Positions 7,681-41,411 of a stretch of DNA of 46,770 nucleotides are shown here, in pieces. How positions within the stretch are numbered: position 1 is the first letter of the stretch; each line of letters opens with the position of its first letter. The position numbers were made by a program, and so were the translations under genes. The notes below the pieces were generated by a model. It did not search any database and was not told the DNA's origin. It worked only from the letters and a program-made list of their open reading frames with translations. Source of the stretch: Caldifarciminota bacterium (GTDB taxonomy: Bacteria; Hydrothermota; Hydrothermia; LBFQ01). The stretch is taken from assembly GCA_027002825.1 (NCBI GenBank), contig JALWZG010000078.1, positions 1-46,770 of the forward strand, read 5' to 3'.

Positions 7681-9852
7681 ATGTTCGTTCTTTTGATCGC
7701 AGGTCCTTCTGCTGATGAGCTCGCGAGGTTGAAGAGGCTGGAAGCCTACTTTGAAGAGGCGGAAAAGACTACGGGCGTTGAGTCGGATCTCCTCAGGGTC
7801 ATATCCTACAGGCTGACGAGGTTTTACCACATACTTCCCGATGAGAAGCACGCGCACGCCGTTCCCCAGTACGGTGTGATGGGCATATTCCACCTAAAGG
7901 AGGCCTCCCGTGTCTCCGGTCTATCCGAAGATCTCATAAGGCGGGATGAGAGGGCGAACGTGCTGGCCGCTGCCCACCTCTTGAAAAATTACATTGATAT
8001 GTGCGGTGGGGATATCGTATGCGCCCTTCAGAAGTACGCCCCACCGGGAGCGGAAAAACCCTTTGCCAGGGATATCCTTCTCCTCAAGAGAAGGGGGATA
8101 AAGGACGCCGTTGTACACGTGGAGCCCGACGCAGATCTGGTCATACCGAAAGAGCTCCTGACGGGCGACGGAGGGGATTACGGACTTATGAGCTGCCCCC
8201 CTGGACCGGAGTTCCCGGAGGTTGAACAGTGGACACCCGCACACTCCTCAAACTACACGTCCGCCAACAGACCCACCGATTACCCCATACAGTACATGAT
8301 AATGCACACCGTTCAGGGCAGCTACTACGGAGCGATAAGCTGGTTTCAAAACTCCTCTGCGAACGTTTCCGCCCACTACGTACTGAACTCCGAGTGTACC
8401 AACTGCCAGACGAATTCGGGAACCGGATACAACGACGGCGCGCCCGTGGGTGAGGCGACACAGATGGTTTGCCACAAGGACATAGCATGGCATGCGGGAA
8501 ACTGGACCTACAACACCCAGTCCATCGGCATAGAGCATGAGGGGTTCGTAGAGTACAACGGATGGTACACCGACACACTCTACAGGAAATCGGCTTACAT
8601 AAGCCGCAGCGCCGCGAACACCTTTGGCTTCCCAAAGGACAGGGTCCACATAATAGGACACAACGAGGTTCCGGGTGCAACCCATACGGATCCAGGCCAG
8701 TACTGGGACTGGGGGTACTACATGGCGTTGGTAAACGGTTTACCCGCAGCGGACACGATAGTGGACGACCTCTCCCAGGGCTTCAGAAAATACGGTCCGA
8801 GCAAGTACTGGTACTACGATTCCGCAAACGGATACGGACTTTACGGCCATATGTGGCACACGGGATCCTGGGCGGGAGTGGCCAACTGGGCCAAATGGAC
8901 GCCCAACCTACCCGTTGCCGGCCAATACGAGGTCCTGGCCTACATACCCTCCGGTGCCCAGTACGACGCCTATGTGCCTTACGTAATAAAGCACGCCGGT
9001 GGAGTTGATACCGTATGGGTGGACCAGGGGAACTACGACGGCCAATGGGCCAGCCTCGGAATTTACAACTTCAACGCCGGATCCTCCGACTACGTCATAC
9101 TGCTTGACTCCTCCACGATAAGCGGGGACAGGATCGCATTTGACGCCATAAAGTGGCACCTGATCTCGGGTGCGCCCTCATGCACCACCGTTGTGGATGA
9201 CGGCGATCCGGGATGGTTCCCTTACGGAAACTGGTCCCTGAGCAGTCTTCCGGGATACAACGGCGATTACAGATACGCCACCATAGGATCACCGGCCGAC
9301 TCCGCCAAGTGGTTCGCCCCTCTCAACTGCAACGGCGGATATCTGGTGTACGCGTGGGTTAGAAAAGGGACGAACAGGACCACCGCCGCCCATTACAGGA
9401 TTTACGCCGATGACGGTGTGCATGACGTGTACATAAACCAGTACGGAAACTCCAACGATACGGGCTGGATATTCCTTGATACGGTATGCACGGATACCAT
9501 GCACGTCATGCTTTACGATAACGCACCGGACGGATCGGTTGTGATAGCAGATGCCATAAAGTTTGAGTACGACCCCGGAGTGTACTGCTCTCCCCTTGGG
9601 GACACAACCCTTAGCGTCGTTGAGGGGAAAGGCGATATAACCATCTCCTATGAGAACTCCGAAATAGTCCTAAAGGTACCGTACGTGCAAGATGTGACCT
9701 TCGGCATATACGATGTGACCGGGAAGAGGGTCTACGGAAAGGTCTTCAGGTCGGTCGTCGGTTGGATTAGGATCCGACCTCCTGTCGGCCTGAAGAGGGG
9801 TGTTTACTTCATAACCGCCAACGGAAAAGCGGTAAAGGTCGTCATCAGGTGA
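7681..9852 (+). CDS. N-acetylmuramoyl-L-alanine amidase (Amidase_2) with N-terminal degenerate transglycosylase-like domain, two golvesin/xanthan-lyase-like domains and T9SS-type-A-like C-terminal domain
   Basis: YMIMHTVQG...SIGIEHEGF...HIIGHNEVPGATHTDPG; duplicated 'VDDxxxxFxxYG...DAIKW/F' modules; C-terminal IYDVTGKRVYGK...LKRGVYFITANGKAVKVVIR. Confidence 0.85.
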   Translation: MFVLLIAGPSADELARLKRLEAYFEEAEKTTGVESDLLRVISYRLTRFYHILPDEKHAHAVPQYGVMGIFHLKEASRVSGLSEDLIRRDERANVLAAAHLLKNYIDMCGGDIVCALQKYAPPGAEKPFARDILLLKRRGIKDAVVHVEPDADLVIPKELLTGDGGDYGLMSCPPGPEFPEVEQWTPAHSSNYTSANRPTDYPIQYMIMHTVQGSYYGAISWFQNSSANVSAHYVLNSECTNCQTNSGTGYNDGAPVGEATQMVCHKDIAWHAGNWTYNTQSIGIEHEGFVEYNGWYTDTLYRKSAYISRSAANTFGFPKDRVHIIGHNEVPGATHTDPGQYWDWGYYMALVNGLPAADTIVDDLSQGFRKYGPSKYWYYDSANGYGLYGHMWHTGSWAGVANWAKWTPNLPVAGQYEVLAYIPSGAQYDAYVPYVIKHAGGVDTVWVDQGNYDGQWASLGIYNFNAGSSDYVILLDSSTISGDRIAFDAIKWHLISGAPSCTTVVDDGDPGWFPYGNWSLSSLPGYNGDYRYATIGSPADSAKWFAPLNCNGGYLVYAWVRKGTNRTTAAHYRIYADDGVHDVYINQYGNSNDTGWIFLDTVCTDTMHVMLYDNAPDGSVVIADAIKFEYDPGVYCSPLGDTTLSVVEGKGDITISYENSEIVLKVPYVQDVTFGIYDVTGKRVYGKVFRSVVGWIRIRPPVGLKRGVYFITANGKAVKVVIR

Positions 9853-9861
9853 GGGCCACCG

Positions 9862-9867
9862 TAGAAT
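9862..9867 (+). promoter_or_regulatory. -10 hexamer TAGAAT, 8 nt before the wecB-like GTG
   Basis: GTAGAATAAGCACCT-GTG. Confidence 0.5.
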
Positions 9868-9875
9868 AAGCACCT

Positions 9876-10961: not shown

Positions 10962-10962
10962 T
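10957..10962 (+). promoter_or_regulatory. -10 hexamer TATAAT of tRNA-Cys, overlapping the wecB stop codon
   Basis: TTATAATTCC 10 nt before the tRNA; TAA stop at 10959-10961 lies inside. Confidence 0.5.
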
Positions 10963-10972
10963 TCCAGCCTAA

Positions 10973-11046
10973 GGTGGCGTAGCCAAGCGGTCTAAGGCGG
11001 CGGTTTGCAAAACCGCTATTCCGGGGTTCGAATCCCCGCGCCACCT
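10973..11046 (+). tRNA. tRNA-Cys(GCA)
   Basis: Acceptor GGTGGCG/CGCCACC, anticodon arm GCGGT-TTGCAAA-ACCGC (GCA), T-loop GGTTCGAATCC. Confidence 0.95.
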
Positions 11047-11047
11047 C

Positions 11048-13343: not shown

Positions 13344-14101
13344 ACGTCCAGGCGCACCTCGCTCCATTCCACCTTGAAATCCCCCCTATCGTCGGAAAAC
13401 GGGAAAAAGGTTACGTCAAAACCGAAGTCGTATCCGCCCAGCCTCTCCCTCTCTCCGAGTGAAACGACCGGCGTATAAAGGCTATCGTAAAAGAAACCTC
13501 CTCCGAGTTTTATGCGTCTGTGCCGTGTTATGTTCGTCTCGTACCTGACCAAAAGTGAAGGCTTGTACCTGTTGGAAAGGTACAGGTTTACCGAGGACAT
13601 TCGGGGATCGGGTACGGCCAAGAAGACGGCCACATCCCCAACCAAATCCCCACCCCCTATGGTGTAAAAGATTCCGCCGCTCACGTAGGCGAGGTATCCG
13701 TACCTCAACGTAAAGTCCACTCCACCTCCCCTGTCCTCAGGCGTTAAAACGGCGGATACACCGGCGGAAAACCATCCGTTGGGTGAGAAGGCCAAACCGC
13801 CTCCGTAGCCGAAGTTTTTGTACCTGTAAAGGAGCGTATCCACCCTAACGTCTCCCAAGGCATCGTTGTTGTAGAAAAGGGATATGGCCAGCCTGCCCGT
13901 TGAGTAGGATATAAAGGAGCTGCCGGGGTTCAGGATGTACTCCTCACCGAAGGCCATCTGCTGGTACCCGGCAAACCCGTACCTATCGTAGGCCGGGACG
14001 GATATACTCCAGAAAACCGCCCTCGCGTTCACACCGAGGTGGCCGGAGAACCCCACCTCTCCCGTGTGAAAGGAGGCAAAGTAAGGGTAAAGGGGGAACA
14101 T
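13328..14101 (-). CDS. Predicted outer-membrane beta-barrel protein (PorV/PorQ/FadL-like possibility)
   Basis: Alternating hydrophobic/aromatic strands, C-terminal VRLDVWVGF; ILNPGSSFISYSTGRLAIS loosely PorV-like; in-frame TAA fixes the start at 14101. Confidence 0.5.
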   Translation of the reverse strand: MFPLYPYFASFHTGEVGFSGHLGVNARAVFWSISVPAYDRYGFAGYQQMAFGEEYILNPGSSFISYSTGRLAISLFYNNDALGDVRVDTLLYRYKNFGYGGGLAFSPNGWFSAGVSAVLTPEDRGGGVDFTLRYGYLAYVSGGIFYTIGGGDLVGDVAVFLAVPDPRMSSVNLYLSNRYKPSLLVRYETNITRHRRIKLGGGFFYDSLYTPVVSLGERERLGGYDFGFDVTFFPFSDDRGDFKVEWSEVRLDVWVGF

Positions 14102-14109: not shown

Positions 14110-14115
14110 ATTATA
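14110..14115 (-). promoter_or_regulatory. -10 hexamer TATAAT (minus strand), 8 nt before the ATG at 14101
   Basis: CTATAATAAACGCTC-ATG on the minus strand. Confidence 0.55.
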
Positions 14116-14219: not shown

Positions 14220-14981
14220 ATGAGGGACGAAGTTCGGAGAATCCTGAAGATGTTGGAAGAGGGGCGCATAACGGCCGAGGAGGCCGAAAGACTCATAAAC
14301 GCGATAGAGGAGGGTGAGAGAAAGCGAAGGGGAGGTTCCAAGGGGGAGGGTGTACACCGCAACGGTGGAACCGTCTCCTTTGAGGAGGCCATATCCAATC
14401 TCGTGATGGGAGTGCTTTCCACGACCTTCAAGGCGCTCTCCCAGACCTTCCGTTTTTTACCCGTACCCGGAACGGGTGATCTGGGAAAGGTCTTCGCAGA
14501 GATGGCGGAGGGTATAGATAGGTTTGGACCGGAGAACGTGGAGCTCCCGGAGGACGCATATGTTGTAAAGATCCTTGAGGGAAATGTGGATGTCAGGACA
14601 TCTCCGGACTCACACCTGGAGCCCGGGACTTACAGGAGAAAGAGGCTTGTGGTCCCTCCTGGGGCGAACGTTGCCGTTTTCGTGGTTGACGGGAACATAT
14701 CCATAACGGGGGATTACGGGGAGATAGTGGCCCAGACCGTGGACGGGAATGTGGAGATCAAGGGGAGATTCTCCCGTTCGCTCGTTAGCGTCGTAGACGG
14801 GGACGTGGACGTGGAGTTCTCCGGTAAAGGCCTGACGGTGGACATGAGGGTCTTCAGCGGAGAGATCTTGGCCGACGCACCCATGGACGGGTCCGGTCGG
14901 ATGGTCTTGGGGGACGGAAGTTCACTCCTTGAGGGAAGGATAGTGGACGGGAATCTTCGTGTGGTTTTTGAAGGGGGTTGA
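14220..14981 (+). CDS. SHOCT-like N-terminal helix-turn plus DUF4097-like beta-helix protein
   Basis: EVRRILKMLEEGRITAEEAERLINAIEEGE, then repeats VEGNVDV/VDGNISI/VDGNVEI/VDGDVDV. Confidence 0.75.
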   Translation: MRDEVRRILKMLEEGRITAEEAERLINAIEEGERKRRGGSKGEGVHRNGGTVSFEEAISNLVMGVLSTTFKALSQTFRFLPVPGTGDLGKVFAEMAEGIDRFGPENVELPEDAYVVKILEGNVDVRTSPDSHLEPGTYRRKRLVVPPGANVAVFVVDGNISITGDYGEIVAQTVDGNVEIKGRFSRSLVSVVDGDVDVEFSGKGLTVDMRVFSGEILADAPMDGSGRMVLGDGSSLLEGRIVDGNLRVVFEGG

Positions 14982-14991: not shown

Positions 14992-14997
14992 TATAAT
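14992..14997 (+). promoter_or_regulatory. -10 hexamer TATAAT, 7 nt before the ATG at 15005 (likely true subtilase start)
   Basis: GTATATAATACCGGCG-ATG. Confidence 0.45.
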
Positions 14998-15004: not shown

Positions 15005-17308
15005 ATGCTTTGGGTTTTGAACAGCATCCCACCTTTGTGGATAAACGGTCATGAGGTTGGACCCGTGAAAAGCGGTATAACGGACGTGAAATACCACGTG
15101 CTGCAGTTCTCCGGTCCGGTCTTCCCCCACCAAAAGGCCGAACTGCGCTCCATGGGTATAAGGTTTTACAACTACTATCCCAAGAACGCCTTTCTGGTGA
15201 AGGCGCCTCCCAAAGCCTTAAGGGAGGCCTTGAGAAAACCTTATGTGGCGAGGGTTGTTCCCCTACTCCCGGCCTACAAACTCCCGTTGCACTTCCGTGA
15301 AAAGCTGAACACGTGCTATTACAGGGAAGGGGATTCCTACAGGGTCAGGCTCGTACTGGCGGATCCCGGGGACGTGCAGAGCGTCAGGAGAGTCGCAGAG
15401 GCGTCCGGCTTAGAGGTGATATCCACCGATGCCCACGTTCCCTATGTAGAGGTTTCCGGAGAGGTTTCCAAAATCCTTCCCCTCTCCGAAAACGAAGACG
15501 TGATATACCTGGAGTTCAGGCACCCCTTGGTGCTTTTCAACAACAGGAAGGCCGTGGTCCATCAATCCGGATTTTTCACCGACCTGCAAGACGTATCCGA
15601 CCCCAACGATACCGTGGTCTGGAAAAAGGGGATAAAGGGGCAGAACGAAATACTCGGCCACAACGATGATGGACTTGACAGAAACCACTGCTTCTTCTCC
15701 GGAAACGTGGGTGGGCAGCCCAAGGTAGTGGACCTCTGCGATTACGACTCAGGTGGATGCGGCGTGGCGGGTCTACCGGCGGGGAGTGGATGTGATGGGT
15801 TTCCCCCTGGGACCGGTTGCCACGGAACGCACACGGCGGGAACCGCTTTGGGCTACTCGGACGCCACCTCTTCGGCCTCCGAAACCTACAAAGGCCTCGC
15901 CCCTATGGCCCGCCTCATATCCCAAACACCCCTGGCAGGGGGGTCCGCCGGGTTTACCACCGTCCTTCAGGACGCCTACGATCGGGGGGCGAGGGTCCAC
16001 ACCAACAGCTGGGGAAGCGTCTGTTTCTTCGGGTTTTGCGCGCCTTCGGATTACTCAACGGAATCCCGCGCAACCGACCTGTTCGTCTGGAACAACCCGG
16101 ATATGACGGTCGTTTTCGCCGCGGGAAACCACGGGGACGCCACCTGTATAAGCGGCTGCTATCGTGAGGCCTCGGATCCCGCGTCCGCCAAAAACGACAT
16201 AACCGTGGGGGCTATGGAGAGGACCTCGGACGCCAAGACCAGCTGGAGCGCCTACGGCTCCTACCCCTCGGGGAGGTTCAGCGTGGATCTCATGACGGTC
16301 GGAGGTCTGACATATTCCGCCGAGGGAGGTACACCGTGCGATATTACGACGTCCAACACGTGGGAAGGCACGTCTATGGCGGCACCGGCCGCAGCCGGTG
16401 CGGCTCTTCTGATAAGGCAGTATTACAGGGAGGGGTGGTATGGAGACGGGACACAGGGTTCGGCGGCCTCCCACAACCCTTCGGCGGCTCTGGTAAAGGC
16501 CTCACTTCTGGCTTCCGCCGTGCCGATATCGGGCGATGGGGACAACGGTGGGGACAACCCTGTTCCGAACGGGAACGAGGGTGCTGGTAGGTTGGTTCTT
16601 GACAACGTGATGTATTTCTCTCCGGAGGACGATTGGAACAGTCCTGCGGATTCCTCGGACGTGAGGAAGTCAAGGCTGTGGTTTGTGGACAACACGTCAG
16701 GGATAAGCACATCGCAGCAGCACACCTACAGCATAGACATATGCAACCAGAACGTTGTGACGAGGTTTGTGCTGGTCTGGAGCGATTATCCTGGGTCAAC
16801 GGGGTGTGCGAGGGGGGGTGGATGCCTTGTGAACGACCTTGACCTTGAGGTTTTGGGTCCTGGGGGTGAGGTTTTCATAGGGAACGCCCCCACCTCTGGT
16901 GTTGACAACCTGACACCGGATGACAACACCATTTCACCCGACAGGGTCAACACTTGGGAGATCGTCCGTATAAAGAACGCCACACCCGGAACCTACACCG
17001 TGAGGGTTAAGGGTTATAACGTCCCCCAGGGTCCACAGCCCTATGCCCTCGTCGTATCAGGCGGATTGGGACCTTGCACGGCGGTGGAATCCATAGAGGT
17101 GGAAAAGACCGGAACAAACCTGACGGTTGAAGGGCGCACACTGAAGGTTGAAGGGAAGGGGAGGATAACCGTTTATACGGCCGACGGTAGAAAGGTCGTT
17201 GAGCGGACGTTTAACGGTCGCACGGACATAACCTTAAAGCCCGGTGTGTACTTCGTCAGACTCTCATCCAAAGGAGTCTCCCGCCTTGCGAGGTACGTTA
17301 TAAGGTGA
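15005..17308 (+). CDS. S8 subtilisin-like serine peptidase (kp43-like layout) with T9SS-type-A-like C-terminal domain
   Basis: Catalytic Asp (HNDDGLD), His (GCHGTHTAGT), Ser (GTSMAAPAAAGAAL); C-terminal VYTADGRKVVERTF...LKPGVYFVRLSSKGVSRLARYVIR; ORF is open back to a TTG at 14978. Confidence 0.88.
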   Translation: MLWVLNSIPPLWINGHEVGPVKSGITDVKYHVLQFSGPVFPHQKAELRSMGIRFYNYYPKNAFLVKAPPKALREALRKPYVARVVPLLPAYKLPLHFREKLNTCYYREGDSYRVRLVLADPGDVQSVRRVAEASGLEVISTDAHVPYVEVSGEVSKILPLSENEDVIYLEFRHPLVLFNNRKAVVHQSGFFTDLQDVSDPNDTVVWKKGIKGQNEILGHNDDGLDRNHCFFSGNVGGQPKVVDLCDYDSGGCGVAGLPAGSGCDGFPPGTGCHGTHTAGTALGYSDATSSASETYKGLAPMARLISQTPLAGGSAGFTTVLQDAYDRGARVHTNSWGSVCFFGFCAPSDYSTESRATDLFVWNNPDMTVVFAAGNHGDATCISGCYREASDPASAKNDITVGAMERTSDAKTSWSAYGSYPSGRFSVDLMTVGGLTYSAEGGTPCDITTSNTWEGTSMAAPAAAGAALLIRQYYREGWYGDGTQGSAASHNPSAALVKASLLASAVPISGDGDNGGDNPVPNGNEGAGRLVLDNVMYFSPEDDWNSPADSSDVRKSRLWFVDNTSGISTSQQHTYSIDICNQNVVTRFVLVWSDYPGSTGCARGGGCLVNDLDLEVLGPGGEVFIGNAPTSGVDNLTPDDNTISPDRVNTWEIVRIKNATPGTYTVRVKGYNVPQGPQPYALVVSGGLGPCTAVESIEVEKTGTNLTVEGRTLKVEGKGRITVYTADGRKVVERTFNGRTDITLKPGVYFVRLSSKGVSRLARYVIR

Positions 17309-18155: not shown

Positions 18156-19126
18156 AGGGCCTCGTAGACCACCATACCCTTTCGTGAAGCGGCGAAGATG
18201 TACCTACCCTTCACCACTATATCGAACACGTAATCCCCCTTGTATATCGGAGGTCGGTAGTAGGCCACCTCCACCTTCTTGAACGGATCCACGACGCTTA
18301 TACCCCCGTCTCCGAACGCCACGTATACCAGTCTGTTTATAGCCCTGACGTTCAGGACGGATCCCCTACCCTTTGCTACCCGCACGAGCTTGGGTTCCCT
18401 CACGTCCGATACGTCGCACAGGGCGATACCGTCCCTCCCCAAGGCCACGTAGGCTATATCCCCTTCAACGTCAACGCTTATGGCGAAGGGGACAACCGTC
18501 TTTCCGTCTTTATCCTTGAACTTCAAAGGGAGATGGCTTACAAGCCTGGGCTTGCGGGGGTTGGAAACATCGTATATCTTCAGGCCGGATCTACCCGCCG
18601 CCACGTACGCGTACCTACCCCTTACGGATATTCCCCTGGTAAATCCACCCGTCTTCGTAAGGCTTACCAACCTAGGTCTTTTCGGATTGGCCACACTGAC
18701 TATGGCAAAGCCGCTGTCCCCTACGGTTACGTAGAGGTAATTACCCTTTCTGACGATCGCCATGGCCGTGTCCTTCAGGTTGAGGCTGGTGATCTCGGAG
18801 GCTGTGTTCGGGTTTGAGACGTTGAAGACGGAAAGCCCTTTGTACCCGTGGGCGGCGTAGAGGTATCCACCCCTCTCCTCAAGTCCAAGGGGAAAGTTGG
18901 TGGTGCTTATGGTCGTTTCCCTGAAAAGGCTTTCCGGCTGCGATATATCCACGACGTAAATCCTGCGCAGAGATGAGAGATAGGCGTACCTCTTTCCCAC
19001 GGTTATGGAGAAACAGGGTGTGGGGAGTCTTAAACGTTTTACAAGCCTTATGTTTGAGGAATCGGGCAGGTACTTCTCCTTCTCCGAAGGTACGTTCCAC
19101 TGCTGCGAGATGAGGACCAAGAGCAT
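18149..19126 (-). CDS. LVIVD-repeat beta-propeller protein
   Basis: Tandem blades 'vrGryAYVA.g..GL.IyDVSnP..P.lvs'; in-frame TAA fixes the start at 19126. Confidence 0.8.
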   Translation of the reverse strand: MLLVLISQQWNVPSEKEKYLPDSSNIRLVKRLRLPTPCFSITVGKRYAYLSSLRRIYVVDISQPESLFRETTISTTNFPLGLEERGGYLYAAHGYKGLSVFNVSNPNTASEITSLNLKDTAMAIVRKGNYLYVTVGDSGFAIVSVANPKRPRLVSLTKTGGFTRGISVRGRYAYVAAGRSGLKIYDVSNPRKPRLVSHLPLKFKDKDGKTVVPFAISVDVEGDIAYVALGRDGIALCDVSDVREPKLVRVAKGRGSVLNVRAINRLVYVAFGDGGISVVDPFKKVEVAYYRPPIYKGDYVFDIVVKGRYIFAASRKGMVVYEALW

Positions 19127-19132: not shown

Positions 19133-19138
19133 ATTTTA
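19133..19138 (-). promoter_or_regulatory. -10 hexamer TAAAAT (minus strand), 6 nt before the ATG at 19126
   Basis: CTTAAAATACCAAT-ATG on the minus strand. Confidence 0.5.
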
Positions 19139-19144: not shown

Positions 19145-21475
19145 TCAGAAGGTCATACCCAACTGGAAGTGGGGCGTCCACCCGCGGGAGGGTTCGTCAA
19201 AACCGTAGGCTATGTCCACACCCATTATTCCCAAAAGGGGTATCTGGGCCCTGAAACCCACACCGGCCGAACGCTTCACATCCATCGGGTCAACTGTCCT
19301 CAGCTCCCACCACACGTTGCCGGCCTCCGCAAAAGCCAAGAGGTAGAAGTTTTCGCTCGGCCTTATACGGAACTCATAGGTTAATACGGAGAACACCTTC
19401 CCGCCGATCGTCATACCCCCCACCCTCGTACCCACACTCCTGAGAGGGTATCCCCTCAGACCGTAAAACCCCACGTCCCCGAGGAGGAAGTACTCAAAGA
19501 AAGGTATGGAGGCGTCCGAGTTGAAACCCGTCAAAAGACCACCCCTTATTCGGAAGGCGTTTATGACCTTGTCCCCTCCCCAGAAGGGAAAGGGTTTGAA
19601 GAACTGCCCCTCGGGAAAATGTCTGAAGAAATGCACATCACCGCCGAGTGGTCCACCCACCATGTCCAGCTGGTAGGAGAGGCGGATACCGTTCATGGCG
19701 TTGAAAATCCTATCCCTTGAGTCGTAATAAACCGTTCCGGAGAGTGTGGACATGAATATGCCCGCGTTCTTATCGTTCCAGAAATCGTAAAAGGGTTGAC
19801 CCTCGTATTTGGGGTTTATCCCGTAGAGCCTTATCCTTTCGAGTTTGTAAAAACCGCTCACACCCCAGTACGTCCCGAAGATCTTCCTTCCAAGGCTAAC
19901 CTGACCCCCTATGCTGTTCTGCCAGAAGTCAAAGTAGTAGCTCGTGAGATAGTAAACGCTACCACCTACACTTATGGGTTCACCCCTAAACCAAGGTTCT
20001 GAGAAGGAGATGCGGAAGTTCTTCCTCCACGTACCGTACTCCAAAATCAGGGCCACGTTCTGACCTCTGCCGAGGAAGTTGGGTTGCTGGAGGGACAGGT
20101 TTCCGAACAGACCTTCAAGTTGACTGTAGCTAACCCCCGCGCTTATCTGCCCCGTGGGTCTCTCCCTCACGTGAACGTTCAGGTCTATCCAGAGGGAATC
20201 GTCGGGGACGGGAGAGAAATCGGGTTGGACGATTTCAAAGTAGTTCAGGAAATAGAGGTTCCTGATGCTCCTTATGAGTTTGGAGCGTGAGAAGTACTCA
20301 CCCGGAAACATCCAAAGCTCCCTCCTTATAACCCTCTCATAGGTTCTGGTGTTGCCGAAGATGTTCACAAGCCTGACCTTAACCCGCCAGTTCTCCGTTA
20401 TTGAAAACCTGAGGTTTATCAGGCTGTCCTCAACATCCCTTCTCTCGTCCACCCTCGCGTAAATGTATCCGGAGTCGGCGTAAAGCCCCAATACCTCCTG
20501 TTTTATCATGTTATACTTGCTCTGGGAGTAGAGGGTGGGGTCCAGGGCGTGGGCGGCGCCGTACCAAAACCTGTACTTTATCCTGTCCCACCAAGAAACC
20601 CTTTTCCTCACCCTCTCCGCCAGCTCACGTAGGGTTTTCCCGTCAAAGACCTCATTTCCCTCAAACTCAACATCCCCGAACCTGTACCTCTTCCCCTCGC
20701 TGAGGAAAACGACCAAACCCATAAACCCCTTCTCCATCTTGACCGTTTTGAAGGAGTCCACCTTGGCGTCGGGATAGCCGTGATCGTGGTAAAACCTCTC
20801 AATCCTCCTCAGATCCTCTTCCCACTTCTCCTCATCAAAGATGTACCAACTCGTAAAACGCAACCACCACCTGTAGGGCTTGGTGTGGATTATCCGGCTC
20901 AGGGTAAGGTCTGAGTAGGCCTTGTTCCCCTTGAACTCTATAAACCCGACCTTGAACTTCTCACCCTCCTTCACCTTGAACTTCACCTCCACCTCTCCCT
21001 TCTTGTCCGGCTTACCCACCTCGTACTCAACCTCCGCTTGGAGATAGCCCTTCTTGTGGTATATCCTCTCAACGAGACGCTTCATCTTAAAGAGGTTTCT
21101 CTCCGTCGCCGGCCTGTTTTTGAACACCTTGTTCAGGGTATCGGTGAAGGTCTTGGATTTCACCTTTTTCGCCCCCTCCACCTTTATCCTTTTGATGCGA
21201 GGAGCCTCCTTCAGGTCAAAGAGGAGGTCAAGGGTATCACCGCGAAGCATCCCGAGGACTTTTACATCGTCAAAAAACCCCAGATCCCACAGCCTTTTGA
21301 GGACATCCTTAAAACCCACAAATGTGATCCTCTGTCCCCTCTCCAACTTTATGGCGTTCCTCAGGACCTGGTGGTTGGTCCATCTCACACCGAGGAACTG
21401 GACCTCTCCCACGTAAACCTCTTTCGGCCTTTGGGAGGTATCAACCGGGGAAAGCACCGTAATCCATAACAACAT
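19145..21475 (-). CDS. bamA: Outer membrane protein assembly factor BamA / Omp85
   Basis: Repeated POTRA domains (YVGEVQFLGV..., RIKRIKVEGAKKVKS..., KVGFIEFKGNKAYSD..., RFGDVEFEGNEVFDG..., KVRLVNIFGNTRTYE...) and C-terminal 16-stranded-type barrel. Confidence 0.93.
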   Translation of the reverse strand: MLLWITVLSPVDTSQRPKEVYVGEVQFLGVRWTNHQVLRNAIKLERGQRITFVGFKDVLKRLWDLGFFDDVKVLGMLRGDTLDLLFDLKEAPRIKRIKVEGAKKVKSKTFTDTLNKVFKNRPATERNLFKMKRLVERIYHKKGYLQAEVEYEVGKPDKKGEVEVKFKVKEGEKFKVGFIEFKGNKAYSDLTLSRIIHTKPYRWWLRFTSWYIFDEEKWEEDLRRIERFYHDHGYPDAKVDSFKTVKMEKGFMGLVVFLSEGKRYRFGDVEFEGNEVFDGKTLRELAERVRKRVSWWDRIKYRFWYGAAHALDPTLYSQSKYNMIKQEVLGLYADSGYIYARVDERRDVEDSLINLRFSITENWRVKVRLVNIFGNTRTYERVIRRELWMFPGEYFSRSKLIRSIRNLYFLNYFEIVQPDFSPVPDDSLWIDLNVHVRERPTGQISAGVSYSQLEGLFGNLSLQQPNFLGRGQNVALILEYGTWRKNFRISFSEPWFRGEPISVGGSVYYLTSYYFDFWQNSIGGQVSLGRKIFGTYWGVSGFYKLERIRLYGINPKYEGQPFYDFWNDKNAGIFMSTLSGTVYYDSRDRIFNAMNGIRLSYQLDMVGGPLGGDVHFFRHFPEGQFFKPFPFWGGDKVINAFRIRGGLLTGFNSDASIPFFEYFLLGDVGFYGLRGYPLRSVGTRVGGMTIGGKVFSVLTYEFRIRPSENFYLLAFAEAGNVWWELRTVDPMDVKRSAGVGFRAQIPLLGIMGVDIAYGFDEPSRGWTPHFQLGMTF

Positions 21476-21484: not shown

Positions 21485-21490
21485 ATTCTA
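21485..21490 (-). promoter_or_regulatory. -10 hexamer TAGAAT (minus strand), 9 nt before the bamA ATG
   Basis: GTGTAGAATACCTCTTCC-ATG; the TAG is also an in-frame stop. Confidence 0.55.
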
Positions 21491-21664: not shown

Positions 21665-22303
21665 ATGTTGGGGGTTTTGTCCTTTACGTTCATAAGCGCG
21701 GACAGTCTAGTGAAGCGCCTTGACAGTTTTACGGTTGTGGACGTTCGGAGCTCATATGAGTACAGGACCGAACACATAAAGGGGGCGATCTCTGCCCCCC
21801 TCAGATTCCTGAAGAAACACATAGAAAACGGTATAATACCCCTGGACAAACCCCTGGTCTTTTACTGCGGATGTCCCCACCACCTCTCGACCATGGCCGC
21901 CAAGATCGCCGAGGGTATGGGTATAGGGGATGTGTACGTCCTGGACGAGGGGTTCTTCGTCTGGAGGGATAGGGGTTATCCCACCGAAGGGGAGAGGAAG
22001 GGTAAAGAACCGAACTACTTTTACGTAAAGGGGTTTGTCAGGGTGGACGGACTTCCCCTGAAGTACGCCAGGATCTTCTTCGTGGAGAAGAAAAACGGAC
22101 AGGTTGAGATGGAGATAACGGACGGAAGGGGGTATTACGAGGGTAGGCTCCCCTTTTACGATATACAGCCCGGTGATACCGTCCTCCTTTACATAGGCAC
22201 ATCCTCCGACTATAAAATCTTCACCTTACCCCCGAAGAGGGGTGAGAAGTGGGGAGCTGTTATAAACGTTGAAGACAACTCTTTGAGGGTAGACCCCCTG
22301 TAG
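21665..22303 (+). CDS. Rhodanese-like domain protein with C-terminal beta-sandwich-like domain
   Basis: FTVVDVRSSYEYRTEHIKGAISAPL...VFYCGCPHHLSTMAAKIAEGMG...VLDEGFFVWRDRGYP. Confidence 0.82.
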   Translation: MLGVLSFTFISADSLVKRLDSFTVVDVRSSYEYRTEHIKGAISAPLRFLKKHIENGIIPLDKPLVFYCGCPHHLSTMAAKIAEGMGIGDVYVLDEGFFVWRDRGYPTEGERKGKEPNYFYVKGFVRVDGLPLKYARIFFVEKKNGQVEMEITDGRGYYEGRLPFYDIQPGDTVLLYIGTSSDYKIFTLPPKRGEKWGAVINVEDNSLRVDPL

Positions 22304-24325: not shown

Positions 24326-24351
24326 CAGGACCTGAGCCGCAGCGTTAAAAT
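24322..24351 (+). promoter_or_regulatory. Promoter TTGACA-18-TAAAAT, ending 6 nt before the ATG at 24358
   Basis: TTGACA 24322-24327 (overlaps the HAD stop codon), TAAAAT 24346-24351. Confidence 0.7.
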
Positions 24352-24357: not shown

Positions 24358-26832
24358 ATGTTCCTGTCCTTAGTCTTGGCGTCAAACTGGTACATAGTGA
24401 GGTTTGGGGATGTGAGGCGGTACGGGATAAACGACGGGAAGGTCCTTTGGAGGTTCCTGAGGGAGAGGTTTGAGGGTTTGGCCAAAAGGGTGAAGGCCGA
24501 GAACCTCGCCGATAGCGTGATCCCCCTTCCCACGGCGAACGCCCTCGCCGTCTTAACGGATAAGGGTAGGGTTTCGGCCATAGTTGAAAGGTTGTCCGCT
24601 GAGTCCTATAGGGAGGTGGATTACGTGAGCCTCGTTAAACCCATAGGCGGTGAGGTACCCCTTTCAACGGGTTCTTGGGCTTTGGACAGGGTTGGGGCGG
24701 ACTCGGCGTGGGCGCATGGTTATGACGGGGGAGGTGTTATCGTCGTGGTTATGGATACGGGCGTGGACACCACACACCCTTACATCGTATCAAAGTGGTC
24801 CGGCCTCTGGTACGATCCCGTTGAGAGAAACCCCAGGCCCGTTGAGAGCTCCTTCCCGCACGGCACAATAGTGAGTGGGGTTATAGTGGCCGACAGCACC
24901 GGGATAGCGCCGGGGGCCAGGCTGGCGGTCGTCAGGATGTTCGGGAAATACCTTACATCCTCCGAGATAACCACACACCTCGGATTCCAAAAGATACTTG
25001 AGTGGAAGATAGACAGCGGATACAACATAAGGGTGTACAACGGCTCCTGGAAGAGCGGAGGGCCGGAAGGTTCTTTGGAGTACTGGAACGACGTTTACCT
25101 GCTCAGATTGGCCGATATCATTCCGGTTTTTGCCCTCGGAAACACACCGGATGTCAACTTCTCACCCGGAAACTACCCCACGGTCATAGGTGTGGGGGCG
25201 ACCTATCAGAGCGACTCCATCGCCCACTTCTCCTCCGAGGGCCCCGCCCCCAACAGACCCCCATGGAACGACCCCGCGTACTGGCCCTACCCCTCCTGGA
25301 ACCTCCTCAAACCGGATGTGGTCGCCCCCGGAGTTGGGGTTCTGACGACCATGCCCGGAGGTGGGTTTCAGGCCTGGTCGGGTACATCCCTTTCATCCCC
25401 CCTTGTCGCAGGGGCTGTTGCGCTGCTCCTTCAGAAGGACCCTACCCTGACGTTTGAGGAGGTACATCGCCTTTTGCGGGAGGGGGCGGATACAGTTCCG
25501 TGGGGGTCTCCCTATCCCAACAACACCTACGGATGGGGGAGGTTGAACGTCTTCAACTCCCTGAACCTTCTCTCCCCTAACCCGCTGAGCGTAAAGGTGG
25601 TGGGGTGGGGTATAGAGGACGGTAGGTTTGACGGGGATGACACCCTTGTGGTGCGGGTTTTCAACCACTCCTCCTCCTCAATTTCCGCCGATTTCCACCT
25701 CACCACTCCCAACCCCTCCGTCTCAATCCCAAACCCGACCACTACGGCCACCCTACCCCCAAACGACACCTCCGTCCTCAGGTGGGGTGTTTCGGCCTTT
25801 TCCCTGGAGGACGGCGAAGAGGTACCCTTTTCCCTCCTGATAACCTCCGGAAGCGACAGCGTCCTCAACCACCTGCTCGTCTTCTACGGTAACCCCCAGA
25901 GGGGGTACGTTGACGTGGACACAGGGGCTTTGGACATATCGCTCACCCGAACGGGTAAGTGGTTCAGAATGCTCTACGAGGGAACCTCCCTGCTGTATTT
26001 GGGAAGCTTCGCCTTTGCCACGGACAGCGCGTACGTGGTTGACGCTTGGGTGGACACACTTTACAACGATCGGGATTTCTCCCCTTTGGGGACGTTTGAG
26101 GTCTTCCCCTTTGTCCCACAGGGGTGGTACATCCTTCAGGACGATTCGGGGCATCCCAACCCGAAAGGCCTGACGTTCAGGACGGCCGCCTATGCCTATC
26201 CTGGACTCGGTGAGGTGTTCCTCTCCTTCACGGTTAAGAACACCACATCTTCAACCCTGAGCGGTTATACGGCGTTTTTTGCCGATCCCGATGTCGGTAG
26301 ACCCTACAGGGACACGGGCTACACCTTTGTGTCCGAGAGGTGTATGTTGGTGGGAGCAACCGACGGCTCGTTCAACGGCTACATAGGGTTTCAGACGTCC
26401 AACTTGCCGGCAAACCTATCCTTTATAAGGAACGATGTGTGGTACGACTCCCTCTCCGATCGCACGAAGTGGAGGTTTATGAAGGGTGAACTCTCGTTTT
26501 ACGCCGATTCAACAAGGGACTGGTCCCTTGTCATATCCGCAGGTCCCTACACCCTAAACCCAGGTGATTCGGTCATGATGCACCTGAAGGTGTTTTACTC
26601 CCCCTTCCCCATCTGTCCCTTTGCCGTCTCTCAGGAGCTGAGGAGGGGCAGCGGAGGACCACCCTTTGAGGTTCACGGTTCAAGGGTCATCGCAAAGGGG
26701 AATCTCGTGATTTACGACGCGTCCGGCAGGAGGTTGTACATGCTGGAGGAGGGGGAAGGCATCCTCCTGAAGGGCGGTGTGTACTTCGTGAAGGGTGATA
26801 AGGGGTATCACAAGTTGCTGGTTAGGCCCTGA
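24358..26832 (+). CDS. S8 subtilisin-like serine peptidase with T9SS-type-A-like C-terminal domain
   Basis: VIVVVMDTGVDTTHP, FPHGTIVSGVI, SGTSLSSPLVAGAVALL; C-terminal VIYDASGRRLYML...LKGGVYFVKGDKGYHKLLVRP; in-frame TAA fixes the start. Confidence 0.9.
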   Translation: MFLSLVLASNWYIVRFGDVRRYGINDGKVLWRFLRERFEGLAKRVKAENLADSVIPLPTANALAVLTDKGRVSAIVERLSAESYREVDYVSLVKPIGGEVPLSTGSWALDRVGADSAWAHGYDGGGVIVVVMDTGVDTTHPYIVSKWSGLWYDPVERNPRPVESSFPHGTIVSGVIVADSTGIAPGARLAVVRMFGKYLTSSEITTHLGFQKILEWKIDSGYNIRVYNGSWKSGGPEGSLEYWNDVYLLRLADIIPVFALGNTPDVNFSPGNYPTVIGVGATYQSDSIAHFSSEGPAPNRPPWNDPAYWPYPSWNLLKPDVVAPGVGVLTTMPGGGFQAWSGTSLSSPLVAGAVALLLQKDPTLTFEEVHRLLREGADTVPWGSPYPNNTYGWGRLNVFNSLNLLSPNPLSVKVVGWGIEDGRFDGDDTLVVRVFNHSSSSISADFHLTTPNPSVSIPNPTTTATLPPNDTSVLRWGVSAFSLEDGEEVPFSLLITSGSDSVLNHLLVFYGNPQRGYVDVDTGALDISLTRTGKWFRMLYEGTSLLYLGSFAFATDSAYVVDAWVDTLYNDRDFSPLGTFEVFPFVPQGWYILQDDSGHPNPKGLTFRTAAYAYPGLGEVFLSFTVKNTTSSTLSGYTAFFADPDVGRPYRDTGYTFVSERCMLVGATDGSFNGYIGFQTSNLPANLSFIRNDVWYDSLSDRTKWRFMKGELSFYADSTRDWSLVISAGPYTLNPGDSVMMHLKVFYSPFPICPFAVSQELRRGSGGPPFEVHGSRVIAKGNLVIYDASGRRLYMLEEGEGILLKGGVYFVKGDKGYHKLLVRP

Positions 26833-28675: not shown

Positions 28676-29005
28676 TCATCGGCTGAGGAGGACCATGAGC
28701 AGGATTCCTGCACCACCCACAAAAACCCCAAGCACTCCGCCGTTAAAGGCCTTTTTCCTGCTCCTCGGCTTGAGCTCCGGTACAGGTGTGAGGTTTTCCG
28801 CAACCCCCGTATAGACCAAACATCCCAGACCACCGGCCGCCGCGGCCGATAGGAAGGGAAAAGCCCCTCCCAATGGAGATGCGGCGGCGTATCCGAGGAC
28901 CTCCAGGCTTGAGACTGCGCAACAGGAGGACACATACCAGAAATCGTCAAAGTTTTTCGGTATCACCGTATCGGGGGCGGACGCGAGCAGAAGGATGAGG
29001 GACAT
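28676..29005 (-). CDS. Small hypothetical membrane protein
   Basis: 109 aa, two to three hydrophobic segments; TAGAAT 8 nt upstream. Confidence 0.5.
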   Translation of the reverse strand: MSLILLLASAPDTVIPKNFDDFWYVSSCCAVSSLEVLGYAAASPLGGAFPFLSAAAAGGLGCLVYTGVAENLTPVPELKPRSRKKAFNGGVLGVFVGGAGILLMVLLSR

Positions 29006-29013
29006 AAGTGAGT

Positions 29014-29041
29014 ATTCTAACCCCGAGTTCGTCCTTAGAAT
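29014..29041. promoter_or_regulatory. Back-to-back divergent -10 hexamers TAGAAT (minus 29019-29014; plus 29036-29041)
   Basis: Minus: TAGAAT then 8 nt then ATG(29005); plus: TAGAAT then 5 nt then ATG(29047). Confidence 0.45.
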
Positions 29042-29046
29042 GGGGG

Positions 29047-30033
29047 ATGTTTGTGCTCTCGTTTACCGTCCACGCTGTCGGTGATGTGATGTTGGGATCG
29101 GTTACTCCCCGCCCTATCCTACCCCCGGACAGTGGGAAGGTCTTTGTGGAGAGCATAGGAGGGTATTTGACCGGGGGAGACGTGGTCTTCGGAAACCTTG
29201 AGGGTACCTTTATCAGGCCGGGTATGAGACCCTCAAAATGCTCGGAGAGGTCAAGGAAAGCGGGGAGATGCTATGAGTTCGGTATGCCCAGCCACCTCGC
29301 CCCCGTTTTGAGGGACCTCGGATTCACGGTTATGAGCCTTGACAACAACCACTCCCTTGACTACGGATGGGAAGCCTACAACCTCACGAGGTCCCTTTTG
29401 GACAGTCTCGGAATAACACCGGTTGGGAAGAGGGAGTACGCCGTTCTGGACGTCGGGGGGTTGAAGGTGGGTGTCATAGCCTTCGGTTTCGGTGGTAGCT
29501 CCTGGCACATAAAGGATGTGGAACAGGCGAAAAAACTCGTAAGGGAGTTGGACGAGAGGGCGGACGTGGTGATCGTCTCCTTCCACGGGGGTGCGGAGGG
29601 GAGAAGGGCGTTGCACGTGAAGGACCGGGTTGAACGGTTTTACGGTGAGAACAGGGGAAACGTCGTCGCGTTCTCCCGCGGTGTGGTTGACGCGGGGGCG
29701 GACCTCGTAATAGGACACGGGCCGCATGTCCTGAGGGCGTTTGAACTTTACAAGGGTAGGCTCATAGCCTACTCCCTTGGCAACTTCCTCACATACGGAA
29801 ACGTAAGCCTGAGGGGGTATAACGGCATAACGGTGATCTTAAAAGTGGAGATGGACAGTACGGGTAGGTTTCTGAGGGGACAGGTGGTACCCGTAGTGCA
29901 GAAGAGACCGGGGATACCCACGTATGATCCAAGTGCAAGGGCCGTGAAGCTCCTGCAGAGACTGATGGAGGAGGATTTTCCGAACACACCGCTCATCCTC
30001 CGGGACGACGGGGTTCTCCTTCCAAGGGAGTGA
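29047..30033 (+). CDS. CapA family protein (PGA_cap metallophosphatase-like)
   Basis: VHAVGDVMLGS...GDVVFGNLEG...VMSLDNNHSLDYG...VIVSFHGGAEG...VIGHGPHVLRAFE...YSLGNFLTYGN; ORF also open to a GTG at 29008. Confidence 0.9.
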   Translation: MFVLSFTVHAVGDVMLGSVTPRPILPPDSGKVFVESIGGYLTGGDVVFGNLEGTFIRPGMRPSKCSERSRKAGRCYEFGMPSHLAPVLRDLGFTVMSLDNNHSLDYGWEAYNLTRSLLDSLGITPVGKREYAVLDVGGLKVGVIAFGFGGSSWHIKDVEQAKKLVRELDERADVVIVSFHGGAEGRRALHVKDRVERFYGENRGNVVAFSRGVVDAGADLVIGHGPHVLRAFELYKGRLIAYSLGNFLTYGNVSLRGYNGITVILKVEMDSTGRFLRGQVVPVVQKRPGIPTYDPSARAVKLLQRLMEEDFPNTPLILRDDGVLLPRE

Positions 30034-34343: not shown

Positions 34344-34880
34344 ATGAGAAAAGTCGCGTTTTTTGTCGTTTTGGGTGCTTTCGCCGTAGGGGCGACGGAC
34401 AGGCCGGACGTCGTGATGAAGGCCAAGGCCCACGTGCGCAGCTTCCCAGGCGCCAAGGTAAAGGGAATTGACGGTGAGGTTTACTTTTACCAATACGGTG
34501 ATATGAGCGTCCACGTCTTCGGCGAGATAAGAAACCTGCCGAAGAACAAAACCTTTGCCCTGCACGTCCACCAGTTCGGGGACTGCTCCTCCCCCAAAGC
34601 ACCGGGAGGGCATTTTGACCCGTACATGAGCGGAAAACACGGACATCCCACAGCACCCATAGGCACACACCACTCCGGTGATCTGCCCAACATAAGGAGC
34701 GATTCAAAGGGGATCGCCAAAGTGGACTTCAAGACCAAAGCCTTTACGGTGATACCTTCACCCTACTCCGTCCTCGGACGTTCGGTCGTAATACACGCCG
34801 GTGTGGACGACTACAAAACGCAACCGGCCGGTGGGGCGGGTGAGCGTATAGGATGCGGGGTCATAGGGGTTGTGAAGTAG
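34344..34880 (+). CDS. sodC: Exported Cu/Zn superoxide dismutase
   Basis: FALHVHQFGDCSSP, GGHFDP, HGHPTAPIGTHHSGDLPN, VVIHAGVDDYKTQPAGGAGERIGCGVIG; N-terminal signal. Confidence 0.93.
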   Translation: MRKVAFFVVLGAFAVGATDRPDVVMKAKAHVRSFPGAKVKGIDGEVYFYQYGDMSVHVFGEIRNLPKNKTFALHVHQFGDCSSPKAPGGHFDPYMSGKHGHPTAPIGTHHSGDLPNIRSDSKGIAKVDFKTKAFTVIPSPYSVLGRSVVIHAGVDDYKTQPAGGAGERIGCGVIGVVK

Positions 34881-36257: not shown

Positions 36258-36266
36258 CCTCACCCC

Positions 36267-38603: not shown

Positions 38604-39247
38604 CGGGTGTGGATGTGGGGGGTAGCCGTCTTGACAGGCTTGGGAGGGAGGTGCTGCTTTACGCCCTATCGCGTAAGGGGGGGAGGAAGACCTACGTGGA
38701 ATTCGGACCGGGAAAGGGAAGGTTGGCCTTGGCGATCGCCCTCCTCGGATACGATGTGCATCTCTACGAAAGGAAAGGCGAGCTTGAAGGACATTACAGG
38801 AAGGTGGTGGACTGCACGGATATGGGTTTAAAGGTGAGATTCCACATAAAGGACATAACCCACATCACCTACAGGGATCTCCCCGACGGTATATCCGTAT
38901 TTGTGGCCTCAAGGGTTTTGCACTACCTCAGATACGGTGATGCCCTCAGGGTCCTAAAGGTTGTCAGGGCGAAGATGGAGAGGGGAGGGAGGCTCTTCAT
39001 GATGTTCTCCGGTATATCCTCTCCCCTATCCGAAGGGTATCCGGACGTTGGGAAACCCGTTGAGATGAGGTTTTCCCATCTATCGCGCGATGTGGCCGGG
39101 AGGTTCGGGATAGGCGAGAGGGTTTGTCTGTACGGCGAGGAGGACGTGCGCAAACTCCTCTCAGAAGTGGGAGGGTTGGAGGAGATCCTCCTCCAAAGGA
39201 CAAAATTCGGCAACGTACTGGCCGTGTACGGAAAGGGGAAGGTTTAG
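38573..39247 (+). CDS. Class I SAM-dependent methyltransferase-like protein
   Basis: TYVEFGPGKGRLALAIALLGYDVHLYER; ISVFVASRVLHYLRYGDALRVLKVVRAKMERGGRLFM. Confidence 0.75.
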   Translation: MDKQDKKTPLTGVDVGGSRLDRLGREVLLYALSRKGGRKTYVEFGPGKGRLALAIALLGYDVHLYERKGELEGHYRKVVDCTDMGLKVRFHIKDITHITYRDLPDGISVFVASRVLHYLRYGDALRVLKVVRAKMERGGRLFMMFSGISSPLSEGYPDVGKPVEMRFSHLSRDVAGRFGIGERVCLYGEEDVRKLLSEVGGLEEILLQRTKFGNVLAVYGKGKV

Positions 39248-39260
39248 ACCTCCCCCATCC

Positions 39261-41411
39261 TCACCTTACCACCACCTTGTGGACCTTGCCACCGCTCACC
39301 ACGAAGTATATACCGGTGCGCAGGGACACCTCCTTTCCGGCCTTGAACCTTCCGAGAAGCCTTCCGGAGGCGTCGTAAAGCGAGGAGTTCCTCTGGAAAG
39401 TCAGTGTGTTTCCGCTCAGGAGATAGGGCAGGGTTCGGTTGCGGGGTTTGGTCATCTCGCCGAATTCCAAGGTTTGCTCGTTACCACACGGACCGGCATC
39501 CGCGGCCACAAGGCTGTAAGGTTGGGTTCCACCCGGTTTGGGGTTGTTAAGGGCCACGCCTGCAACCTTTATCGTCCATGTCCCCCTGCGCGCGGGGGAT
39601 ACGTAGACCACTTCCGTCGGGTTTGTGTAATCCCTTGAGGTGGGGTTGGGTGTAGAAACACCGTTTGTGTCCATAACGTTCCCCTTGAAGACCAACCCCT
39701 CAGGTGATATTACGATGAGATCCAGGTCGTTCTGGAGGTAGGCCCCAGGTGCATCCGTCCAGCTGAGGACGACCTTGACGTAATCCGTCATCACGGACTC
39801 GCTACATCCCAGATCCACGTGAAAGACGGCCGTGTCCCCTTGGGATATACCCACCGTGTCGTCCACCACGAAGAGCCTGTGTTTGTACTCGGGTGGGGCG
39901 TTCCTGAAGTACATAGCCTTGCTGAGGTTTATCCTGCCGAAACCCACCTCGCCGTTAGGGGGTGGAGGCTCGTTTGCGAGGGGCTCCGCCGCGAGGATGA
40001 GCATGGCCTTCAGTAGAGAGCCTTGGGGGGTGAAGGCGTCCGAGGGCGTGGCCTGACCGCTGGGATAAAACCCATCCCTGAAGTACTGCCTGACCAGAAG
40101 GGCGGCACCGGCTGCGGCCGGCGCGGCCATGGACGTGCCCTGGAAGGAATAACCCGTCACCCTGCAGGAGGGTGTCCTATCGGTCCGGTTCTTCGCAGAG
40201 GTTATGAACCCCCACCTGTAATCCCCTCCGGGTGTCATGACCTCGGGCTTTATACGTCCGTCGTAAGCCGGTCCCTGCGAGGAGTAATAGGCCCTGTACT
40301 CATCGTACCCCCCGGATACGTTGAAGGGCCCCGTCGCTCCCACACTCAACACGTTTTTGGCCGTCGCGGGTGATCCCAGGGTGCGATCCTCGTAAGCCCC
40401 ATCCGAGCTGTTGTTCCCCGCGGCCACCACAACAAGGGCATCGGGATAATCCCACATGAAACGGTCAACATCTCTCGCCGAAGAGGTGTACGAGTTCCAA
40501 GGACTGCCGAAGGACATGTTTATCACCCGTGCCCCGTCGGGGTAGAAGTAGTTGGTGAGTATATCGTAAAGCGTTGAGGAATAACACACGCTGTTGCAGT
40601 TGCCGCAGGAGGGACTGCCAACATCCCCGAAGACCACCTTGGCCCCGTAGGCCATTCCCTTGAACCTGTGATAAAGGGACGCCGTGGTATCCGGATATCC
40701 AAGAAACGTGCCGGACACGTGGGTTCCATGGGAGAGATCACACGTCGCAAAATCGTCGGCATACGAGCTCAGGACATGGTAGGCTATAACCTTCCTGTGT
40801 GCCGGACCGGGTGTGATCACGGTCGTGTCCCTGAAGAAACATGAATAGTAGTCAAGACCCGTATCCATCACACCCCCTATCTCACCCTCACCCGTTATGC
40901 CGTTCTCCCACACCAGTGAGTCCCCGGCGACGTGCGTTTGTATGGACCACCTGGTGTTCTGGTTGTAGAAGTACATCCTGAAGTCCGGCTCCACCGAGGA
41001 TACGTGTGGGGACTTCGCCAGGTCCAGGGCCACGGAGAGGACGTCCTGTGGGGAGACGTATATTTTGTAACGGGGGATTTCGGGGTCCTTGAACTCCTCA
41101 GGCACAAACCCGCGCGCCGTCAGAAGATCCAGCAGGTGTGCCGGGTTTTCTCCGGGAAACCCCGATATTATCAACCTTACTCTGCCGGAATAGATGGCGT
41201 CTTCAAGATGGCCCTCAAAGATGGCCCGGCTGACCTTCAGCTCAACCGGTACAGGGGATGTCTTGAAGGGTAGCTTTGTCCCTTCCGGAACGTACGCTAT
41301 ATAACCGTATCCCGGAACGTACTCGTACACGCCAACGCCGTAGTCCCGGAGGGTGGACACATCCGCCCTCCCGTCAACCAACATCCAACCTCCTATCACA
41401 AGGGCAAACAT
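39261..41411 (-). CDS. S8 subtilisin-like serine peptidase (kp43-like layout) with T9SS-type-A-like C-terminal domain
   Basis: GEIGGVMDTGLDYYSCFF, DLSHGTHVSGTF, GTSMAAPAAAGAALL; C-terminal SLYDASGRLLGRFKAGKEVSLRTGIYFVVSGGKVHKVVVR; start set by TATAAT 9 nt upstream (ORF open to 41450). Confidence 0.9.
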   Translation of the reverse strand: MFALVIGGWMLVDGRADVSTLRDYGVGVYEYVPGYGYIAYVPEGTKLPFKTSPVPVELKVSRAIFEGHLEDAIYSGRVRLIISGFPGENPAHLLDLLTARGFVPEEFKDPEIPRYKIYVSPQDVLSVALDLAKSPHVSSVEPDFRMYFYNQNTRWSIQTHVAGDSLVWENGITGEGEIGGVMDTGLDYYSCFFRDTTVITPGPAHRKVIAYHVLSSYADDFATCDLSHGTHVSGTFLGYPDTTASLYHRFKGMAYGAKVVFGDVGSPSCGNCNSVCYSSTLYDILTNYFYPDGARVINMSFGSPWNSYTSSARDVDRFMWDYPDALVVVAAGNNSSDGAYEDRTLGSPATAKNVLSVGATGPFNVSGGYDEYRAYYSSQGPAYDGRIKPEVMTPGGDYRWGFITSAKNRTDRTPSCRVTGYSFQGTSMAAPAAAGAALLVRQYFRDGFYPSGQATPSDAFTPQGSLLKAMLILAAEPLANEPPPPNGEVGFGRINLSKAMYFRNAPPEYKHRLFVVDDTVGISQGDTAVFHVDLGCSESVMTDYVKVVLSWTDAPGAYLQNDLDLIVISPEGLVFKGNVMDTNGVSTPNPTSRDYTNPTEVVYVSPARRGTWTIKVAGVALNNPKPGGTQPYSLVAADAGPCGNEQTLEFGEMTKPRNRTLPYLLSGNTLTFQRNSSLYDASGRLLGRFKAGKEVSLRTGIYFVVSGGKVHKVVVR

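Follow-up and report, generated by a model that had tools for sequence, protein, structure and literature searches.

Ultra-short, uncharged N-termini of exported proteins in a Caldifarciminota (WOR-3) genome are probably minimal Sec signals

Introduction

Classical bacterial export signals are described with a positively charged n-region (e.g., PMC10559633). In Bacteroidetes, a Q-rule applies in addition, with Gln at position +1 in about 71% of signal peptidase I (SPase I) substrates; the rule is reported not to be general in the FCB (Fibrobacteres, Chlorobi and Bacteroidetes) group, and WOR-3 is not mentioned (PMC5837995). The mature form of CsgC, a periplasmic protein of Escherichia coli, is taken as residues 9-110 (PMC4838910), and the CsgC chain of PDB 2y2t likewise starts at residue 9. 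Our literature searches on short or minimal signal peptides gave nothing directly relevant. Here, we analyse a 46,770-nucleotide stretch (the window) that forms contig JALWZG010000078.1 of assembly GCA_027002825.1, a WOR-3/Caldifarciminota metagenome-assembled genome (MAG) of 113 contigs and 1.72 Mb that is incomplete (86%). Seven of its proteins begin with a few hydrophobic residues and no charge. We propose that these short N-termini are probably genuine Sec-dependent signals of the SPase I type, cut to the hydrophobic core and the cleavage region, although export and cleavage are read here from sequence.

The BamA of the window is 76% identical to its closest named records, which are MAGs labelled "candidate division WOR-3", a name now filed under Caldifarciminota at NCBI.

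Results

Seven ultra-short N-termini and their start codons

A sequence-only reading of the window had singled out seven short uncharged N-termini, and all of them are found at the positions it gave. On the forward strand, an amidase (Amidase_2 plus Golvesin_C) starts with MFVLLIAGPSA (7681-7713), subtilase B (Peptidase_S8) with MLWVLNS (15005-15025) and subtilase C with MFLSLVLA (24358-24381). On the reverse strand, a barrel-like protein without a Pfam match starts with MFPLYPYFA (14075-14101), an LVIVD propeller (LVIVD Pfam match) with MLLVLIS, then QQ (19106-19126), BamA (five POTRA domains plus Omp85) with MLLWITVLS (21449-21475) and subtilase D (Peptidase_S8) with MFALVIG (41391-41411).

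Start codons were evaluated with a model of two motifs, TANAAT and AGGAGG, fitted on genes called across 513 kb of the source genome; this sample (the window plus further stretches, about 30% of the genome) also underlies the genome-wide statistics below. All seven starts carry a TANAAT -10 box 6-9 nt upstream, with model probabilities P of 0.89-1.00. The boxes are TATAAT for the amidase (7666-7671, 9 nt before ATG 7681, P = 1.00) and the barrel-like protein (14110-14115, reverse strand, 8 nt, P = 1.00), TAAAAT for the LVIVD propeller (19133-19138, reverse strand, 6 nt, P = 0.95) and subtilase C (24346-24351, forward strand, 6 nt, P = 1.00), and TAGAAT for BamA (21485-21490, reverse strand, 9 nt, P = 0.93).

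The sequence-only reading had also held that, in five of the genes, an in-frame stop precedes the ATG with no ATG, GTG or TTG in between. This is confirmed for the amidase (TAG at 7651), subtilase C, the LVIVD propeller, BamA and the barrel protein. In three of these genes (subtilase C, the propeller and BamA), this stop, TAA or TAG, doubles as the opening codon of the -10 box, and the barrel gene has a stop that overlaps its box. Such tight packing of stop, promoter and start reflects mRNAs that look leaderless: a -10 box at 6-9 nt would put the transcription start at the start codon. The frames of subtilases B and D are open upstream, with TTG candidates at 14978 and 41450, yet their ATG starts are supported because each is preceded by a perfect TATAAT, 7 nt before ATG 15005 (14992-14997, P = 0.98) and 9 nt before ATG 41411 (41421-41426, reverse strand, P = 0.89). 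With in-frame stops for five genes and -10 boxes for all seven, the short N-termini are not start-site misannotations, as the first reading had argued.

Leaderless starts appear to be common in this genome. About 49% of genes have a TANAAT that ends 6-9 nt upstream of the start codon, and about 40% have AGGAGG; in the window, the spacing TANAAT-N6-9-start codon occurs 22 times against 6.2 expected, and -35 matches upstream of the boxes are weak. We observed this signature, in about half of genes, in the window and in own-genome loci L020-L039 and L112-L131. A literature search gave no report of leaderless genes in WOR-3, and the motif was not seen when the other classes of the phylum were pooled. 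Leaderless initiation was considered as the cause of the short signals and rejected. By start type, the 49 short signals defined below comprise 41 leaderless, seven Shine-Dalgarno-led (SD) and one unassigned, and short signals also occur in the other classes of the phylum, where no leaderless motif could be detected; therefore, short signal and leaderless start are separable traits.

A genome-wide class of short signals

We defined class S by the absence of K, R, D and E before about residue 9, a seven-residue stretch at the very N-terminus with a mean hydropathy of at least 1.9, and a first polar residue by about residue 17, with no other transmembrane stretch. Such N-termini occur at 54 of 341 confident starts, whereas within these proteins the rate at internal Met is 66 of 2110 (3.1%). 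The cross-phylum control consisted of 95 annotated E. coli proteins, of which three fall in class S (Fisher p = 5e-4 versus the source genome), and five Myxococcota loci with none among 30 confident starts. Of the E. coli members, FolK and HrpB are cytosolic and count as false positives. The remaining one is CsgC of strain K-12 (csgC, L194:4962-5294; MNTLLLLAALSSQ), which thus turned up in the control with an eight-residue uncharged leader, MNTLLLLA, followed by ALSSQ. The false-positive rate of the classifier is about 2-3%. Among the 54 proteins, five are likely false positives (GlmS, a MobA-like protein, a glycosyltransferase and two others) and were excluded, which left 49.

In these N-termini, Leu reaches 0.31-0.55 per position at residues 2-6, compared with 0.10-0.18 in cytosolic-like genes, and at residue 2 Leu accounts for 55% and Phe for 18%. 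The class has no positively charged n-region, its definition requiring positions 2-8 to be free of K/R. Counting Met, the median length of the uncharged non-polar run is nine residues, with a core proper of 5-8 (n = 49). Small residues rise at positions 6-9 (A, S or G in 21/49 at position 7 and 18/49 at position 8), and some members have no good site. The first polar residue is Gln in 8/49 against 2.4 expected (p = 0.003), and six of these eight follow S, G or A. This enrichment points to likely cleavage directly before the Gln, with several leaders lacking a good -1 residue. Behind the run, the next 15 residues have a net charge of -0.69, compared with +0.12 at residues 61-75 and +0.15 at cytosolic-like N-termini (p = 0.012 for the latter difference), an acidic bias as expected of translocated mature N-termini. 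The short run holds no Arg and hence no twin-arginine motif.

Cargo and the contrast with lipoproteins

Class-S cargo consists mostly of extracytoplasmic proteins. A Pfam scan of 30 members, including those of the window, returned Omp85/POTRA, subtilases (S8), Amidase_2, LVIVD, rhodanese, the peptidase families M14, M1, M23 and S15, DsbA-like thioredoxin, cytochrome c, 5'-nucleotidase (UshA-like), TolC-type OEP, OmpA, SLT transglycosylase, Poly_export and TPR; some members had no match. Likewise, 11 of 12 Por_Secre_tail proteins of the source genome start, by inspection, with a short uncharged leader. The Por_Secre_tail matches on these 12 proteins, which resemble tails of the type IX secretion system (T9SS), are mostly weak (own-genome loci L008-L019). 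GVYFVR-type ends were seen on proteins of the window.

Lipoproteins differ sharply. A lipobox scan of the confident starts gave 19 proteins, none of them in the short class; all 19 have K/R in the n-region, longer signals and the Cys at residues 14-24. Comparing short with classical signals in lipoproteins and SPase I-type proteins gives Fisher p = 1e-8, a conservative test as the classical non-lipoprotein set holds some membrane and cytosolic proteins. The suggestion that two classes of export signal coexist was therefore borne out, with lipoprotein signals classical throughout and SPase I-type proteins mostly ultra-short.

The window itself carries the ordinary signals that had been noted there: a multihaem cytochrome with MRKLLSLSVLSLFISAGIVLFA, then Q after the cleavage mark (3382-3447, forward strand), SodC with MRKVAFFVVLGAFAVGA (34344-34394, forward strand), and two lipoproteins with MRWTYTFLFSTLAIALLLGC (7499-7558) and MRVLLILTVLLIGC (42490-42531), both on the reverse strand. 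For the first of these lipoproteins (6395-7627, reverse strand), the longest open reading frame overstates the N-terminus, and the start is probably the internal ATG 7558 (MRWTYTF...LLLGC), which has a Shine-Dalgarno sequence.

Conservation and natural swaps

BamA was sampled from 60 genomes of the phylum, and its N-terminus could be read in about 50; the choice of start in this set is biased to hydrophobic leaders, a bias that nearby upstream stops curb in most genomes, and one row (G054) is wrong and another (G040) ambiguous. Within the order of the source genome, the leader is uncharged in all ten informative genomes, nine of which have a Gln directly behind the run at position 8, with two near-identical pairs among the nine. 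Examples are MFVLFLA/Q, MILLLIG/Q, MWLFLTA/Q and MLIIILG/Q (the slash marks the candidate cleavage site), on BamA proteins that have themselves diverged to about 42% identity. Leaders in the rest of the class measure 7-16 residues and contain at most one Lys. The other classes of the phylum have both short forms (MIWILALFPYGE; MTSLLLALLLAT, then Q after the cleavage mark; MIFFLLSLTVADI) and classical ones (MRKYWLTLIFLLVFTTSFA and MKRFNILLILFFSSIFIFS, each then Q after the cleavage mark). Overall, short BamA signals run across the class and are patchy across the phylum. The orthologue comparison that the sequence-only reading had called for thus finds similarly short N-termini, encoded by different DNA, in independent genomes of the class. 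Similarly, a subtilase C orthologue (L092; MLLSFLAVGGWYVVDFGDVRRY) is equally short, with a stop two codons upstream.

Natural swaps between the two signal forms are also found. Within one genus, members of the same protein family begin with MIVLQLLS/QVV (L032:9804-10829) or with MRGRMFAISIVFLIPSVLSG, then QVV (L111, in genome G003, contig C34), and the +1 Gln stays in register. A Skp-like orthologue pair shows MIAMLFLLA/QEVKIGYID and MKRNFKIFLFVFALPIFAQ, then QKIGYID. The short leader aligns with the h-region and c-region of the classical orthologue and lacks its n-region together with part of the core; therefore, the short form corresponds to a classical signal without its n-region.

Export machinery

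One each of SecY, SecA, SPase I, LspA and TatC was found in the source genome, and one SecY and usually one SPase I in relatives. No second translocon or duplicated SPase I was found in the source genome (86% complete), nor generally in relatives. Genome G003 (L135) has a second, distant SecY and a second BamA, which are probably contamination (7%). A prlA-like SecY was rejected as an explanation: the pore-ring positions I82, I86, I187, I191, I278 and I408 (E. coli numbering) are intact in class members, and the only change, I187A, occurs in the source genome (L071) and is absent from the rest of the class. A thin membrane is disfavoured, the SecY segments and lipoprotein signals being normal in length.

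Further candidates in the window

Two additional short signals may be present. A rhodanese-domain protein starts with MLGVLSFTFISA (MLGVLSFTFISADS; 21665-21700, forward strand) from an SD start called at only P = 0.48, and a small protein starts with MSLILLLASA (MSLILLLASAPDT; 28976-29005, reverse strand), outside the start-model scoring. The start of a PGA_cap (CapA-like) protein at 29008-30033 is ambiguous between GTG 29008 and ATG 29047; MFVLSFTVHAVGD, read from ATG 29047, is an uncertain class member because the PGA_cap domain begins at residue 7.

Discussion

We propose that the cell would read the short signals with its ordinary, single SecYEG/SecA and LepB. Their layout is Met, then 5-8 residues that are mostly Leu, Phe or Val, then a small residue (A, S or G) at about position 7-9, often with Gln behind it, for a total of about 7-12. 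The free N-terminal amine of Met would supply the sole possible positive charge. SecA or the signal recognition particle (SRP) would recognize the run, which would then insert into SecY, and LepB would presumably cut near the small residue, so that the mature domain begins immediately behind the signal. Lgt and LspA work inside the membrane. They would require a full helix there, and LepB would not, so that lipoproteins retain full-length charged signals; the lipoprotein contrast fits this idea, which draws on general knowledge of these enzymes. A broader idea, which we regard as tentative and rather doubtful, is that signal length sorts exports: 7-10 uncharged residues would be the default SPase I route, only long charged signals would enter Lgt/LspA, Sec and LepB would be adapted to an n-region-less signal, and the lineage would hold the first genome-wide minimal-signal Sec system.

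Several observations weigh against cleaved Sec signals. The SPase I site is poor in MITFFVL/Q, MILFLLV/Q, MLIFVFN/Q and in the window's own BamA, MLLWITVLS/PVD, with Pro at +1; therefore, cleavage of some members may fall a few residues further on or may not occur. A run of seven hydrophobic residues is too short to cross the bilayer, so that it is hard to see how LepB would reach the site, and the SecY pore ring has no consistent prlA-like change to account for lax recognition. The same poor -1/-3 residues, and an LepB active site in which seven residues are difficult to accommodate, speak for a variant in which the short signals act in membrane targeting and export without being cleaved by SPase I, the end staying as a weak anchor or being trimmed later by other proteases. 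We consider this unlikely for the class, as outer-membrane barrels, TolC and secreted proteins with T9SS tails would all bear a greasy end, and the small residue plus Gln that is repeatedly seen where the run ends lines up with the position at which orthologues seem to have a classical cleavage site.

Less probable still is a route other than SecYEG, e.g., an unknown translocon or a dedicated receptor for the short N-terminus. The signals do violate two textbook rules (n-region charge and a length that falls under 12), and the class is large and lineage-specific. The sequence-only reading had allowed for a separate non-classical pathway on similar grounds, but none is needed: a single SecY, SecA, SPase I, LspA and TatC were found in the genome (86% complete), within a genus orthologues of the same protein can have either a classical or a short signal, and E. 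coli handles CsgC.

It is very improbable that longer signals exist and were hidden by wrong or missed upstream starts, frameshifts or assembly errors. The data are from MAGs, and some relatives have 10-70 open codons ahead of the start; however, the starts are fixed by in-frame stops and by -10 boxes at a distance of 6-9 nt, and similar lengths with different DNA recur at genus, family and class level in independent genomes. Equally improbable is a chance origin, with cytoplasmic proteins that simply begin with a hydrophobic beta strand. The few false positives named above speak for it, but it is already refuted for the class as a whole by the five-fold excess over internal Met, the richness in Leu rather than Val/Ile and the extracytoplasmic Pfams, although single members could still be cytoplasmic.

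What a minimal Sec signal requires is an old question that has mostly been approached with mutants. This lineage supplies many natural signals that are n-region-less and about half-length, beside normal lipoprotein signals in the same cell, and makes the question directly testable; the CsgC leader offers a ready laboratory model of the short type. In practice, signal-peptide predictors and gene finders may well label these outer-membrane and secreted proteins as cytoplasmic, and the secretome of the phylum is likely under-predicted.

Finally, the short signals can be placed among known systems. Like classical Sec/SPase I signals, they sit on exported cargo, align h- and c-region to h- and c-region and have an N-terminal hydrophobic core, in many members followed by small residues; unlike them, they lack the charged n-region and total only about 7-12 residues, with a core of 5-8 where classical cores measure about 7-15. 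The charged n-region, a defining feature of the classical signal, is thus absent altogether, and the length lies at or below the lower edge, yet they appear to work as Sec signals. Signals of lipoproteins, the signal peptidase II substrates, serve the same export task in the same genome, but all 19 are charged and longer and carry their Cys at 14-24. The Bacteroidetes Q-rule is echoed in the enrichment of Gln straight after a small residue, among the short signals as well as several classical ones; here, however, Gln is a minority (8/49), though it reaches 9/10 in BamA of the order. CsgC shares eight uncharged, Leu-rich residues on a periplasmic protein, and it is a single E. coli protein, whereas in this WOR-3 lineage the form is the default for SPase I-type proteins. 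An eight-residue uncharged signal is therefore not unprecedented; what is new, as far as we have searched, is a lineage that uses the short form as its usual SPase I-type signal.

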